Shown one piece after another: positions 41,298 through 47,800 of a stretch of 47,800 bases of DNA (its first letter is position 1; the number at the start of each line of letters is the position of its first letter). The stretch comes from Acidobacteriota bacterium. Lineage in GTDB: Bacteria > Acidobacteriota > Blastocatellia > RBC074. The stretch covers positions 1 through 47,800 of the forward strand of contig JACPYM010000073.1 of NCBI GenBank assembly GCA_016196035.1, in the 5' to 3' direction. The position numbers and the translations under genes were made by a program. The notes under the pieces were generated by a model. The model was not told where the DNA came from, searched no databases, and worked only from the letters and a program-made list of their open reading frames with translations.

Positions 41298-41443
41298 GAA
41301 GTTTATTGCTCCTTGTGATTTGCCGCTGACTTACCAAGTGGTTAGCGACAGCAAAGGTATAACAGTAGCGCCGTTTGAACAATACTCAAGTCCGGGTTTC
41401 CGCGCCGCCGCTTCAGAATGCCGCCCTCTAGCATTCAAGAAAA

Positions 41444-41613
41444 AGAAAACCACGGGGGACACAGGGAACACGGGGGCAGCAAGGTCAGCAGCGGGTGCGC
41501 CTTGCTCAATGTTCAGCGGTCTTTTTGCCCACGCTCTGCCCCCTGTACCCCCTGTACCCCGTGTGCCCCGTGTGCCCCGTGTCCCCCGTGTCCCCCGTGT
41601 CCCCCGTGGTTTT
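41444..41613. repeat. 17-bp inverted repeat with decamer tandem array
   Basis: AAAACCACGGGGGACAC (41444-41460) and its exact inverted complement (41597-41613) bound the element. The right side carries about seven 10-base units of the CCCCGTGTGC kind (about 41540-41609), which would encode repeated Pro-Arg-Val. Their style is like the CACAGAGG element at 4678-4786. The flanking 41298-41443 and 41614-41876 hold nothing else I can support apart from the pseudogene start signals. Confidence 0.7.
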
Positions 41614-41876
41614 GACCAAATTCTTTTCCTTGCAGTCTATATTTGAAACATCAGCGGACCGTGTCGGCAACCGCTTCATAAAAAACCTGCGGCAAAGGCC
41701 CGGCTCAGATCGTCAACGCCGCCGGAAATAGGTAAATTACCAATGCGCGTGTGTTGCAGATGTCGGGCACTGCCCCGTTCACCCGCGCCTCGTTGCGTCT
41801 TTGCCTTACTTTCGTCAACGTGCGTCACGTTGAATTCGTGTCTGTACTGACAACCAACATCACGACTGGAGGCCGC

Positions 41877-42178
41877 ATGAATCGCCTGCTTTCCGTTCGC
41901 GCCGCGCTTGTCACGGCGTGCTGCATCGCGTTCACATTTTATTTACCGGCGCATGCCCAACCGCAACTCACCAAGGCCGACATTGACCGGCTGATGACCC
42001 AGCTTTCCAATTGGGGCCGCTGGGGCAAAGACGATCAACTCGGCGCGCTCAATCTGCTCACGCCCGCCAAACGCAAAGCCGCCGCCGCGCTGGTCAAAGA
42101 GGGCGTCGCTGTTTCGCTGGCATGCGAATCGAACGCGGAACGCGAGGTGGATAATCCGAATCCTTACCAACACACCGC
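41877..42178 (+). pseudogene. 5' fragment of a cyclase-family gene
   Basis: The ATG at 41877 follows GGAGG (41868-41872) and begins a signal-type N-terminus (LVTACCIAFTFYLPAHAQ). A stretch nearly identical to the intact cyclase gene at 45726-46709 follows (MTQLSNWGRWGKDDQLGALN). Close DNA identity to the intact copy ends near 42175 (CCAACACACC). The frame then reads unrelated sequence to a stop at 42545, so the product would be an N-terminal stub. The catalytic His motif of the cyclase is missing. Confidence 0.85.
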
Positions 42179-42183
42179 TGTAA

Positions 42184-42511
42184 TCACTGAACCTGATGAA
42201 CGATGTGACGTATGTCGAAGCAGCACGCTTCCTGGCCGAACGCATGCTCAAGGAAGGTGGCGCGACGCCGCAACAACGCCTAGCTTGGGGCTTTCGCGTC
42301 TTGCTGGCGCGTGCGCCCAGCGAACGGGAGTTACAAACATTGGTGCGCAATCTGAGCAAGCAGCAAGCGTATTTCACCAGCAACCTGCCAGCCGCCGCGC
42401 AACTGCTGGCGGTTGGCGACAAACGTATCGGCGGTCAATTCGCTGCGGCGGAATTGGCGGCCTATGCCCAGTTTGCTGTTTAATCTGGACGAGGCGATTA
42501 CCAAGCAATAA
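42184..42511 (+). pseudogene. 3' fragment of a DUF1553 (PSD1) gene, frameshifted
   Basis: From 42184 the sequence reads NLMNDVTYVEAARFLAERML, then RLAWGFRVLLARAPSERELQ, then FAAAELAAYAQFAV and a stop. This is the C-terminal pattern of DUF1553 proteins of planctomycetes and acidobacteria. One frame over, the expected end FNLDEAITKQ and a stop (42509-42511) follow, so a small deletion has broken the frame. No start is present; the fragment is joined directly to the cyclase stub. Confidence 0.75.
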
Positions 42512-42553
42512 TTGTGTAAGGCTGGCGATAACAGCTTCCGCATAGAGGACGCA

Positions 42554-45493
42554 ATGGACCCAGAACGCTTGCTACAGATCGAAAAGCTCTATCACGCAGC
42601 GAGAGAATACGCCCCAGCGGAGCGCGCAGCTTTTCTAGTGGAAGCCTGCACCGCTGATGACGGTTTGCGGCACGAGGTCGAAATGTTATTGCGCGATGAC
42701 AGCGCGGAGTGGAGCTTCATTGAGGGAAAGGGGCTCGAACTGGTGGCACAACGGCTTGGTGCCGCGGCGTTGAGCGAGGCCAAGCTGCCGTTTCTCGCAG
42801 GACAACAAATCGGCGCGTACAAGATTCTTGGGCCCCTGGGCAAGGGGGGAATGGGCGAAGTCTATCGGGCTAAGGATGAGCGCTTGAACCGCGCAGTCGC
42901 TATCAAGGTTTTGCCGAGCAGCTTTGTCCAAGACGCAACCTTGCTCAAACGCTTCGAGCAAGAAGCGCGCGCGACTTCGGCACTCAATCATCCAAATATT
43001 CTGACCATCTACGACATTGGCGAGCACGCGGGAACGCCTTACATCGTCGCCGAATTGCTGGAAGGCGAAGAATTGCGCGCGCAAATGCCTTCGGGGTCAG
43101 AAGCTGGTGCGCTGCCCGTGCGCAAAGCCATCGAGTATGCGCAGCAGATTGCGGCTGGGCTGGCCGCCGCGCACGACAAAGGCATTGTGCATCGGGACCT
43201 CAAACCCGAAAACCTGTTCGTCACCAAAGATGGGCGCGTCAAGATTTTAGATTTCGGCTTAGCGAAGCTGAAGCCGCAGAGGTTGGCGGGCGGCGTGGAT
43301 TCCGAAGCTCCTACGCAAAAGCCGTTGACGAATCCCGGCATGGTGATGGGGACGGTTGGGTACATGTCGCCGGAACAGGTGCGCGGGCAGGAAGTCGATC
43401 ATCGCTCGGACATCTTCAGCTTCGGGATGATTCTGTACGAGATGCTGAGCGGCAAACGGCCGTTCAGCGGGGCGTCAATGGCGGATGTGATGAGCGCGAT
43501 TTTGAAAGACGAGCCGCCGGAGTTGAGCGAGACCAATGCGAAGATCAACCCGGCGCTAGACAAGCTCGTGCGGCATTGTTTAGAGAAGCAACCGGAGTTG
43601 CGCTTTCAGTCGGCGCGCGATCTGGGTTTTGCACTCGAAGCCGTCGCGGCGCACGCGAGTTGGCCGTCCGGCGCGCAATTAAGCGAGGTGACCGGAGTGG
43701 TGACTGACCAGACCGGCAGCAAGTGGCGTATCGGCCTTGGACAGTTTGGTTGGCTTGCGGCAGCGATTTTCCTAGTGGTGTTTGTCGGATCGGGCATTGC
43801 CTACTTCAAGCGTGCGCAACCGGAGGCGCTGGCCTTGCGGTTTATGCAGTTTGCGCCGGAAAAAACGAATTTCGCTGCTTTTTCCGTCTCGCCGGACGGG
43901 CAGCGGCTCGCCTTTAGCGCCGCCGACTTAAGTGGGAAGAGGCTTCTGTACGTCCGCCCGCTGAATTCTTTCACAGCCCAGGCCTTGCCTGGAACGGAGG
44001 ATGCGGCTCTTCCGTTCTGGTCACCAGACAGCCGCTCGCTAGGGTTTTTCAGCGAGGGAAAGTTGAAGCGGATTGAGCTGTTAGGTGCCACGCCGCAAAC
44101 GATTTGCGAAGCCAAGATACCGGTCGGAGCTTCGTGGAATCGCGCTGGTGAAATTGTCCTGTCGGGAAGCGGGGATGTGCTCTATCGTGTGCCCGCCACA
44201 GGCGGCGTTCCTACCGCGTTGACGACGCTTGATGCGTCGCATGGAGAAATCATTCAGGGGCTCCCGCAATTTTTGCCCGACGGTCAACACTTCCTTTATT
44301 TTGCGAACTATAACTATAACCAGGCTGCCCGGACGGGAATTTATGTTGGCTCGCTCTCGGACAAAGCGACGAAGCTGGTGCTCAACACGGAATGTACTGG
44401 TAGCTATGCGGCGGGCCATTTGCTGTTCGCCAAAGGTGGCACGCTGTTGGGACAAGTCTTCGACCCCGGCGCGCTGAAGCTCGTCGGAGCACCCTTTCAG
44501 GTGGCTGAGCAGGTGAGAACTACCCCTTTTCTTCCCGTTTTCTTTACACACTTCAGCGTTTCTGAGAGCGGCGTACTGGCTTATCAGACTGGCGCTAGTA
44601 AGTTGCCGCAACTGATCTGGTACGATCAAACCGGCAAGCAACTTGGTGCGGTCGGTGAGCCAGCCAATTACAGCAATCCGAGTCTTTCGGCGGACGACAA
44701 GCGGTTGGCTGTAGGTATTCGAGACCCCAACACAAAGAAACGCGACATCTGGCTGTTTGATTTGGCGCGTGGCGCTAAATCGCGGTTCACCTTTGATCCG
44801 GCGGATGATCTCAATCCGCTCTGGTCAAGAGATGGCAGCCGGGTTTTCTTTACTTCCGACCGCAAAGGGCAGCGCGACATTTTCCAAAAGAAAGTGGACG
44901 CTGCCGAAGAAGAGGAACTCGTTTACACCTCGCCCGAAATCAAGAACGTCTCTGACCTGTCGCCCGATGGCCGACTGATGATCTATGTTACGAATCCTCT
45001 TGGCTTCAGCAGTTCGACCCAGAATGATTTGTGGTTGTTGTCGCTGGAAGAAGAGCGCACCGCCAAGCCCTTTCTCAAAACGCAGTTTCAAGAAGAACAA
45101 CCAACCATCTCGCCCGATGGCCGCTATGTGGCCTACGCGTCATATGAATCTGGCAGGGGTGAAGTCTACGTGACGACTTTCCCACAACTCGGCGGCAAAT
45201 GGCAGGTTTCAGTAAACGGTGGTGTGGAGCCGCAGTGGCGGCGGGACGGGAAGGAGTTATTTTTTGTCGTCGGCGACAAGATACTAATGGCGGTAGAAGT
45301 GAAGGCTACTGCTGCCGGGTTCGAGACGGGTGTGCCGCGTCAGCTCTTTGAGACTCCTTTTGTCAATCCGGGCCGAAACAACTATGTCGTGACAAGCGAT
45401 GGAAAACGGTTCTTGGTGATCACACGAGTTGAAGACACGGCCTCCCCGCCCATCAATGTGGTGGTCAATTGGATGGCAGAGGTGAAGAAATAG
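42554..45493 (+). CDS. Membrane Ser/Thr protein kinase with WD40-like propeller
   Basis: The 979-residue protein starts with a helical lead (1-85) common to acidobacterial kinases. The kinase domain is complete: GKGGMGEV (96-103), K118 in [14 protein letters not shown] with D215, DFG (233-235), and [16 protein letters not shown] segment lies at about 398-417. The outer part has TolB/WD40-like propeller repeats ([41 protein letters not shown]) up to the C-terminus. It likely senses something outside the cytoplasm and phosphorylates proteins inside. GAGG at 42545-42548 favours the ATG at 42554. It is preceded by pseudogene debris and followed by an intact cyclase gene. Confidence 0.92.
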
Positions 45494-45629: not shown

Positions 45630-45725
45630 GCTGCATACTCAGAATAGGAGAGAAGCCTGCTCACAACTGCCGCTATGGAAGAATTGTTTCTCTCATTCCC
45701 AAACAATCTGATTACAGGAGGCACC

Positions 45726-46709
45726 ATGAATCGTAAACGTTACCCATTCACCGCCCTCGTGCTGGTCTTGACCGGCGCGCTCACGTTCTATCTGCCGACC
45801 CACGCGCAACAAAAGCTGACCAAAGCCGACATTGACCAAATGATGACCCAGCTTTCCAATTGGGGCCGCTGGGGCAAAGACGATCAACTCGGCGCGCTCA
45901 ATCTGCTCACGCCCGCCAAACGCAAAGCCGCCGCCGCGCTGGTCAAAGAGGGTGTCGCCGTTTCGCTGGCGCGCGAATCGAACGCGGAGCGCGCGGTGGA
46001 TAATCCGAATCCTTACCAACACACCATGCTACTGGCCGACGAACTGCAATGGAGCGCCGACAGTTTCGGCGTCAACTTTCACGGCTATCAGCACACGCAC
46101 ATGGATGCGCTCTGCCACATCTTTTACCAGGGCAAAATGTACAACGGCTTTTCCCGCCAGGAAGTCACGGCCAAGGGCGCGGGCAAGCTGGCGATCACCA
46201 ATCTGAAACAAGGCATCTTCACGCGCGGCGTGCTGATGGATATGGCCGCGCTCAAAGGCGTGCCCTATCTGGACGGCGCCGTAGCGATCTATCCGGCGGA
46301 TTTGGATGCTTGGGAAAAGCGCGCCGGCCTCAAGGTTGGCGCAGGCGACGCGGTGTTCATTCACACCGGACGCTGGGCGCGCCGTGCGGCCAAAGGCGCG
46401 TGGGATGCCGAGCAAGGCACGGCGGGCCTGCACGCCTCGTGCGCGAAGTGGCTCAAAGACCGCGATGTAGCCTTGCTGGGCAGCGATGCCGCCAGCGATG
46501 TCTTGCCGTCGGGCATCGCAGGCATCTCGCATCCCGTGCACTTGCTGACGCTGAATGCGATGGGCGTGCACATTTTCGACAATTGCGATCTGGGGCCGCT
46601 GAGCGCCGCCACGGCGCAACGCAAACGCTGGACGTTTTTGCTGAGCGCCGCGCCCTTGCCGATCACAGGCGGCACGGGGTCGCCGCTCAATCCGATTGCG
46701 ACGTTCTGA
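45726..46709 (+). CDS. Cyclase-family protein (kynurenine formamidase-like hydrolase), exported
   Basis: The 327-residue protein has a signal peptide (about 1-28, ending PTHAQQ). The PF04199 metal-hydrolase core has the His/Asp motif HTHMDALCH (123-131). Further family segments are GVLMDMAALKGVPYL, AVFIHTGRWARR, ALLGSDAASDVLPSG and HLLTLNAMGVHIFDNCD. Members hydrolyse amide or lactone bonds with a divalent metal; the substrate here is unknown. AGGAGG (45716-45721) lies 4 bases before the ATG. A truncated copy lies at 41877. A GC-rich hairpin and a Ser/Thr kinase gene follow. Confidence 0.85.
   Translation: MNRKRYPFTALVLVLTGALTFYLPTHAQQKLTKADIDQMMTQLSNWGRWGKDDQLGALNLLTPAKRKAAAALVKEGVAVSLARESNAERAVDNPNPYQHTMLLADELQWSADSFGVNFHGYQHTHMDALCHIFYQGKMYNGFSRQEVTAKGAGKLAITNLKQGIFTRGVLMDMAALKGVPYLDGAVAIYPADLDAWEKRAGLKVGAGDAVFIHTGRWARRAAKGAWDAEQGTAGLHASCAKWLKDRDVALLGSDAASDVLPSGIAGISHPVHLLTLNAMGVHIFDNCDLGPLSAATAQRKRWTFLLSAAPLPITGGTGSPLNPIATF

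Positions 46710-46826: not shown

Positions 46827-47800
<974 letters not shown>

Follow-up and report, generated by a model that had tools for sequence, protein, structure and literature searches.

Microhomology-mediated or illegitimate recombination at short direct repeats fuses genes or deletes parts of them and leaves chimeric pseudogenes, a well-known kind of event, and gene conversion between neighbouring paralogues is likewise known in bacteria. A third point of comparison comes from the same bacterial family as the genome described here, in which two relatives (G006 and G008) carry a PSD1–cyclase–DUF1501 cluster on one strand (Pfam labels checked), with the two gene families that meet in the present locus standing adjacent. 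The window, i.e. the whole stretch of DNA that was analysed, is the complete 47,800-base contig C73 of an Acidobacteriota genome of 9.59 Mb (139 contigs, 96.9% complete). On its + strand, a chimeric region (41877–42511) is followed by kinase 1 (42554–45493; Pkinase domain and PD40 repeats), an intact cyclase (45726–46709; PF04199, E 2.4e-18; a second in-frame ATG lies upstream at 45675), and kinase 2 (46827–47800), the frame of which is open at the contig end and the product of which is 77% identical to that of kinase 1 over 300 aa.

As in short-repeat fusion pseudogenes, the chimeric region joins pieces of two unrelated coding sequences, out of frame and at a few bases common to both, and has subsequently decayed; as in gene conversion between bacterial paralogues, it carries a bordered identical block within divergent direct copies, here 3849 bases apart. 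With moderate confidence, the region is interpreted as a dead chimeric gene that would have arisen by exchange between cyclases and by a direct-repeat deletion, from an ancestral order on one strand of cyclase A – PSD1 – kinase 1 – cyclase B – kinase 2. Two repeats also lie in this part of the contig. The intergenic DNA upstream of the pseudogene (41446–41613) holds repeats resembling CCCCGTGTCCCC, in which 31-base arms are inverted (94%), and a perfect 29-base inverted repeat (CCTGGGAGCGCAGGCGTCTCGCCTGCGGG with its complement) sits at the contig end (47700–47800), inside the open frame of kinase 2; the latter is perhaps a dispersed repeat at which the assembly stopped.

The cyclase fragment and its mosaic

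The fragment at 41877–42176 aligns without gaps, at the constant offset, with the first 300 bases of the intact cyclase, and each of the first four positions after 42176 differs from that gene. The cyclase match to the window (tblastn, E 2e-46) is more than chance. Judged by eye, the encoded piece comprises an apparent signal peptide and the start of the mature enzyme. Its 108-aa product has no Pfam match at E up to 0.001 and does not constitute a working PF04199 cyclase; the PF04199 match of the intact gene starts only beyond the 100 residues of the fragment, at residue 137 in the 344-aa frame, or residue 120 when counted from the ATG at 45726.

The first-pass annotation had described a cyclase 5′ end with about 190 near-identical bases ending near 42175 and had proposed aligning the two cyclase copies. 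The alignment bears out this description in substance, with corrected borders, and shows the cyclase piece to be a mosaic. Near-identity extends over 185 bases (41992–42176, six differences), and homology reaches back at much lower identity to the ATG at 41877. By block, the fragment differs from the intact cyclase at 43/115 positions in its 5′ part (41877–41991), at 0/112 in a gene-conversion-like tract (41992–42103, identical to 45841–45952 of the intact gene), and at 6/73 at the end of the cyclase homology (42104–42176). Despite the 37% difference, the 5′ part contains no indels, and its synonymous and nonsynonymous differences (pS 0.66, pN 0.27) represent paralogue-level divergence from the intact cyclase. 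Because of this divergence, the fragment records one or more additional exchanges, of the homologous kind. That it is merely a recent duplicate of the intact cyclase is ruled out by the 43 differences among the first 115 bases. Outside its own copies, and among the loci collected in this analysis, the best match to the 5′ part of the fragment was the 5′ part of the intact gene (58% aa identity over 38 residues). The fragment thus began as an older sister copy of the intact cyclase, later exchanging sequence with it; the mosaic shows that an exchange took place and leaves its direction undecided.

Constraint as the cause of the 112-base identity is ruled out by the five orthologues compared (G004, G006, G008, G009, G019), which differ from the intact gene by 21–29/112 bases in this block; in the last 73 bases they differ by 19–30. 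The smallest difference from the intact gene in the block was 20/112 among 81 sequences, comprising five relatives and 76 of 80 cyclase loci (omitting L044 and L045, from the same genomes as G004 and G006, L066, truncated within the gene, and one locus lacking the anchor motif of the alignment). A ratio test of the 185-base part versus the 115-base part was significant for all four orthologues tested (p = 6e-6 to 1.3e-4; G019 not entered). When 49 differences were placed randomly in 300 bases, a run of at least 112 identical bases occurred in 0 of 20,000 trials, and when six differences were placed in the last 185 bases alone, in 2.4% of trials. The contrast between 0/112 and 6/73 is weak by itself (p = 0.02–0.07, for tract borders picked after inspection of the data), so the exchanged tract may be 112 bases, or up to 185 bases or more. 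As expected of a conversion tract, the identity exceeds constraint and is bordered, on the left by the flank with 43 differences; the right border is not resolved. It is improbable that the truncated copy is still a live exchange partner for the intact secreted cyclase 3.8 kb downstream; were it one, the pseudogene would feed variants into the working gene, or be overwritten itself, in a presumably free-living acidobacterial host.

The join and the PSD1 tail

The cyclase and PSD1 homologies have no gap between them and overlap by 11 bases, ACCAACACACC, at 42166–42176, where the end of the cyclase homology is also the start of the PSD1 homology. The 3′ end of the PSD1/DUF1553 gene (42166–42511) was delimited by tblastn with the PSD1 paralogue on C105 of the same genome, the match to which begins at 42166 (76% aa identity over 104 residues, E 2e-40) and carries on in another frame to 42508, followed by a stop at 42509–42511. 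In a class-wide search, with the window's own match set aside, 19 of the 20 PSD1-side matches started at query position 77 (= 42166), the remaining one being a 30-base match in G121, and all three cyclase-side matches ended at query positions 86–87 (= 42175–42176). The DUF1553 start had previously been placed at 42184, which is the base directly after an in-frame TAA (42181–42183) and was mistaken for the beginning of the tail; the start is moved here to 42166.

A short shared sequence is therefore present at the join, though its length depends on the stand-in chosen for the lost parental PSD1 and ranges from 5 to 11 bases. Counted by eye, the PSD1 on C114 shares 10 of the 11 bases of ACCAACACACC (eight consecutive), and the PSD1 on C105 shares nine (five consecutive). 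Random joins between cyclase and PSD1 fell inside an exact match of at least 8 bases in 0.03–0.04% of cases, of at least 6 bases, with C105 as the PSD1, in 0.3%, and of at least 4 bases in 2.4–2.5%. The five consecutive bases shared with C105, the nearest paralogue, are not rare, and because matches of eight or more bases are rare and those of four or more are not, the strength of the microhomology argument depends on the stand-in.

The frames of the cyclase and PSD1 parts are one base apart, so the fusion was dead, as a PSD1 or as a cyclase, from the start. Within the tail, the TAA at 42181–42183 occupies a position where eight aligned PSD1 homologues have a sense codon, and the frameshift reported by the first-pass annotation is confirmed, since at about 42467/42468 the tail has an 8-base deletion when compared with all eight of these homologues. 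The PSD1 piece covers only positions 197–242 of the 244 of the PF07587 profile (28.3 bits; cut-off 28.5), extending to positions 176–242 (43.4 bits) when one TAA is read through, and lacks the whole domain, the upstream parts, and the open frame of a working PF07587 gene. The region is thus a chimeric pseudogene, made of contiguous fragments of two unrelated genes, out of frame and disabled, and no function is expected of the remnant.

Compared with the C105 paralogue, the PSD1 tail has a dS of 0.82 and a dN of 0.15, and compared with 13 other PSD1 tails a dS of at least 1.34. In a tree of about 100 residues and 15 sequences (two of which, L033 and L036, are the same gene; L034 and L125–L127 have no tail with the motif used and were not included), the fragment groups with C105 (FastTree local support 0.98; IQ-TREE 90 on the corresponding branch), on a branch about 3–4× that of its sister (0.22–0.23 versus 0.06–0.07). 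The tail is read as that of a gene whose divergence took place mostly under selection, from which it was later released. PSD1/DUF1553 is a strongly expanded family in this genome, with 24 PF07587 matches as opposed to none in 14 control genomes. One PSD1 gene on C91 (54578–55410) appears as two adjacent matches (profile positions 1–63 and 65–243) that start in different frames, and is perhaps another frameshifted PSD1.

Gene order in relatives and possible histories

The first-pass annotation had suggested looking for the same junction in related genomes and for the intact DUF1553 parent. Only the genome under study has a match that crosses the junction, both among the 14 of 58 relatives (own genome included) and among the 12 of 162 genomes of the class with some match, leaving 0/57 other relatives and 0/161 other members of the class (the two sets overlap, and the best eight and best five candidates per genome were scored, respectively). 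The one genome of the same genus in these two sets (G001, 73% complete) has a PSD1 match only. The assembly holds no intact parent at high identity, the nearest gene being that on C105 (77% over 336 bases).

Where the two families are linked in other genomes, either order occurs. G009 has PSD1 and then cyclase near a contig end (Pfam label checked for PSD1). Among 80 cyclase loci from named genomes, eight have a PSD1 match, which lies upstream on the same strand in three (L045, which is G006, L058, and L096), downstream on the same strand in three (L054, L075, and L111), and on the other strand in two (L050 and L090); these counts come from searches at E 1e-8 with a single query each for PSD1, DUF1501, and kinase, with which distant neighbours may be missed, and many of the 80 loci are cut by contig ends. 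In G003, a kinase directly follows PSD1, like the kinase directly 3′ of the PSD1 tail in the window; its identity is 51% with kinase 1 (931 residues) and 76% with kinase 2 (306 residues). This G003 locus (L041, 1–6949) carries a PSD1, the kinase, a PIN-domain ORF, and DUF1501 on one strand, the kinase and PIN protein sitting where the cyclase stands in G006 and G008. In G007 (L042, 1–4554), one PSD1 gene directly follows another on the same strand, the first being truncated at the locus start, indicating that the family can stand in local arrays.

The two kinases flank the intact cyclase, and at the DNA level no gene in the genome is closer to kinase 1 than kinase 2 (78%, the next being 70%). 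A conversion tract between them was not convincing, the longest identical run being 29 bases. A duplicated cyclase–kinase unit was rejected on the basis of a 77-aa N-terminal extension of kinase 1 that is absent from kinase 2, as were similar flanks upstream of the two cyclases (matches of at most 18 bases, best E 0.028).

That illegitimate recombination united two genes, as originally annotated, is supported by the unrelated parents, the out-of-frame join, the shared bases, and the disabling lesions, but that account was incomplete, having overlooked the second, homologous exchange that the mosaic of the cyclase half shows. At least two events are needed, a homologous exchange between cyclases and an illegitimate join to PSD1. 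In the favoured history, cyclases A and B would be older paralogues, of which 112–185 bases were made alike by homologous exchange. A deletion between short direct repeats, ACCAACACACC in the cyclase and the TNTP codons of PSD1 (ACCAACAC and similar), would then have joined the 300 bases at the cyclase 5′ end to the ~345 bases at the PSD1 3′ end, removing the cyclase catalytic domain and most of PSD1, and the remnant would have decayed after the fusion through the nonsense codon, the 8-base deletion, and faster amino-acid change. The join is directly visible; that a deletion and not a duplication produced it, and the order of the two events, we infer.

The same final sequence, also by two events, would result if the segment PSD1 3′–kinase 1–cyclase B 5′ had been duplicated in tandem at this microhomology, creating the joint of cyclase 5′ end to PSD1 3′ end, and if cyclase A had then undergone homologous recombination with the duplicated cyclase 5′ end, deleting the left copy. 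This alternative is considered rather unlikely, yet the gene order of the nearest relatives that link both genes (G006, G008, and G009) counts against the favoured history, since duplication of their PSD1→cyclase arrangement would be expected to give just this joint order. The PSD1 tail, kinase 1, and intact cyclase to the right of the join also fit the right half of a tandem duplication, and the 185-base part beside the join, with its six differences, fits a duplicate of cyclase B. The same-strand cyclase→PSD1 loci, conversely, were counted for the favoured order. A tandem duplication requires the loss of its left half, and upstream of 41877 tblastn found no left-copy remnant (PSD1 or a second kinase 1) below E 0.09; PSD1, DUF1501, cyclase, and kinase queries likewise had no match below that value anywhere in the window outside the known genes. 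Because no left-copy remnant is present in the window, the balance tilts slightly towards deletion.

An assembly artefact, in which reads from different loci were joined at 42166–42185, is very improbable. The genome is a draft, the missing halves of both genes could lie in unassembled DNA, and an exact repeat of 112 bases is long enough to trouble short-read assembly. Yet the putative source loci do not occur at high identity elsewhere in the assembly, where PSD1 reaches only 77% over all 336 bases (C105) or 85% over 112 (C114) and the cyclase is matched only by the neighbouring gene and by 25 bases on C66; there are seven PF04199 matches in the genome, and the three others that could be aligned to the intact cyclase are only 27–33% identical to it. 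Based on the match table, the 23 PF07587 matches outside the window include no 5′ piece with its end close to profile position 196, and each partial match has a partner beside it (C91 and C18). No listed match of either family resembles a missing half. With two copies of a direct repeat on a single contig, only one linear path should run through all of the flanks, and the decay lesions lie within the fragment itself. Least credible of all is a new expressed gene, by which the 222-aa frame at 41877–42545, running from the cyclase ATG through the out-of-frame PSD1 part, would encode a secreted protein with a cyclase N-terminus and a novel C-terminus. The frame is open, it keeps the apparent signal peptide, and by eye a purine-rich stretch precedes the ATG. 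However, openness over such a stretch is not special, because the same alternative frame is open for 14, 41, 14, 101, and 80 codons in five PSD1 homologues; it is judged to be due to chance, and a function for the frame was rejected on the same grounds. The frame was found in no other genome searched, and sigma-70-like promoters numbered zero in 41298–42600, a weak indication given that 0.4 were expected by chance.

Comparison with known recombination events

The chimeric locus is ordinary genome decay, unusually readable, and opens no long-standing question. Its interest is that two types of recombination, a homologous exchange between paralogues and a microhomology join, can be read in some 640 bases of a genome with many PSD1 and kinase genes, and that it carries a warning, namely that how closely a pseudogene matches its neighbour can reflect the age of an exchange instead of that of the duplication. 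Unlike other short-repeat fusion pseudogenes, the fragment adjoins an intact paralogue and bears the marks of a second, homologous exchange, while the intact parents at the site are gone. Compared with gene conversion between bacterial paralogues as otherwise known, one partner here is a truncated pseudogene, and the direction and right border of the exchange are not determinable. In the cluster of G006 and G008, both genes are intact, with PSD1 first and DUF1501 after, whereas the chimeric locus has the reverse order and only truncated pieces of the two.
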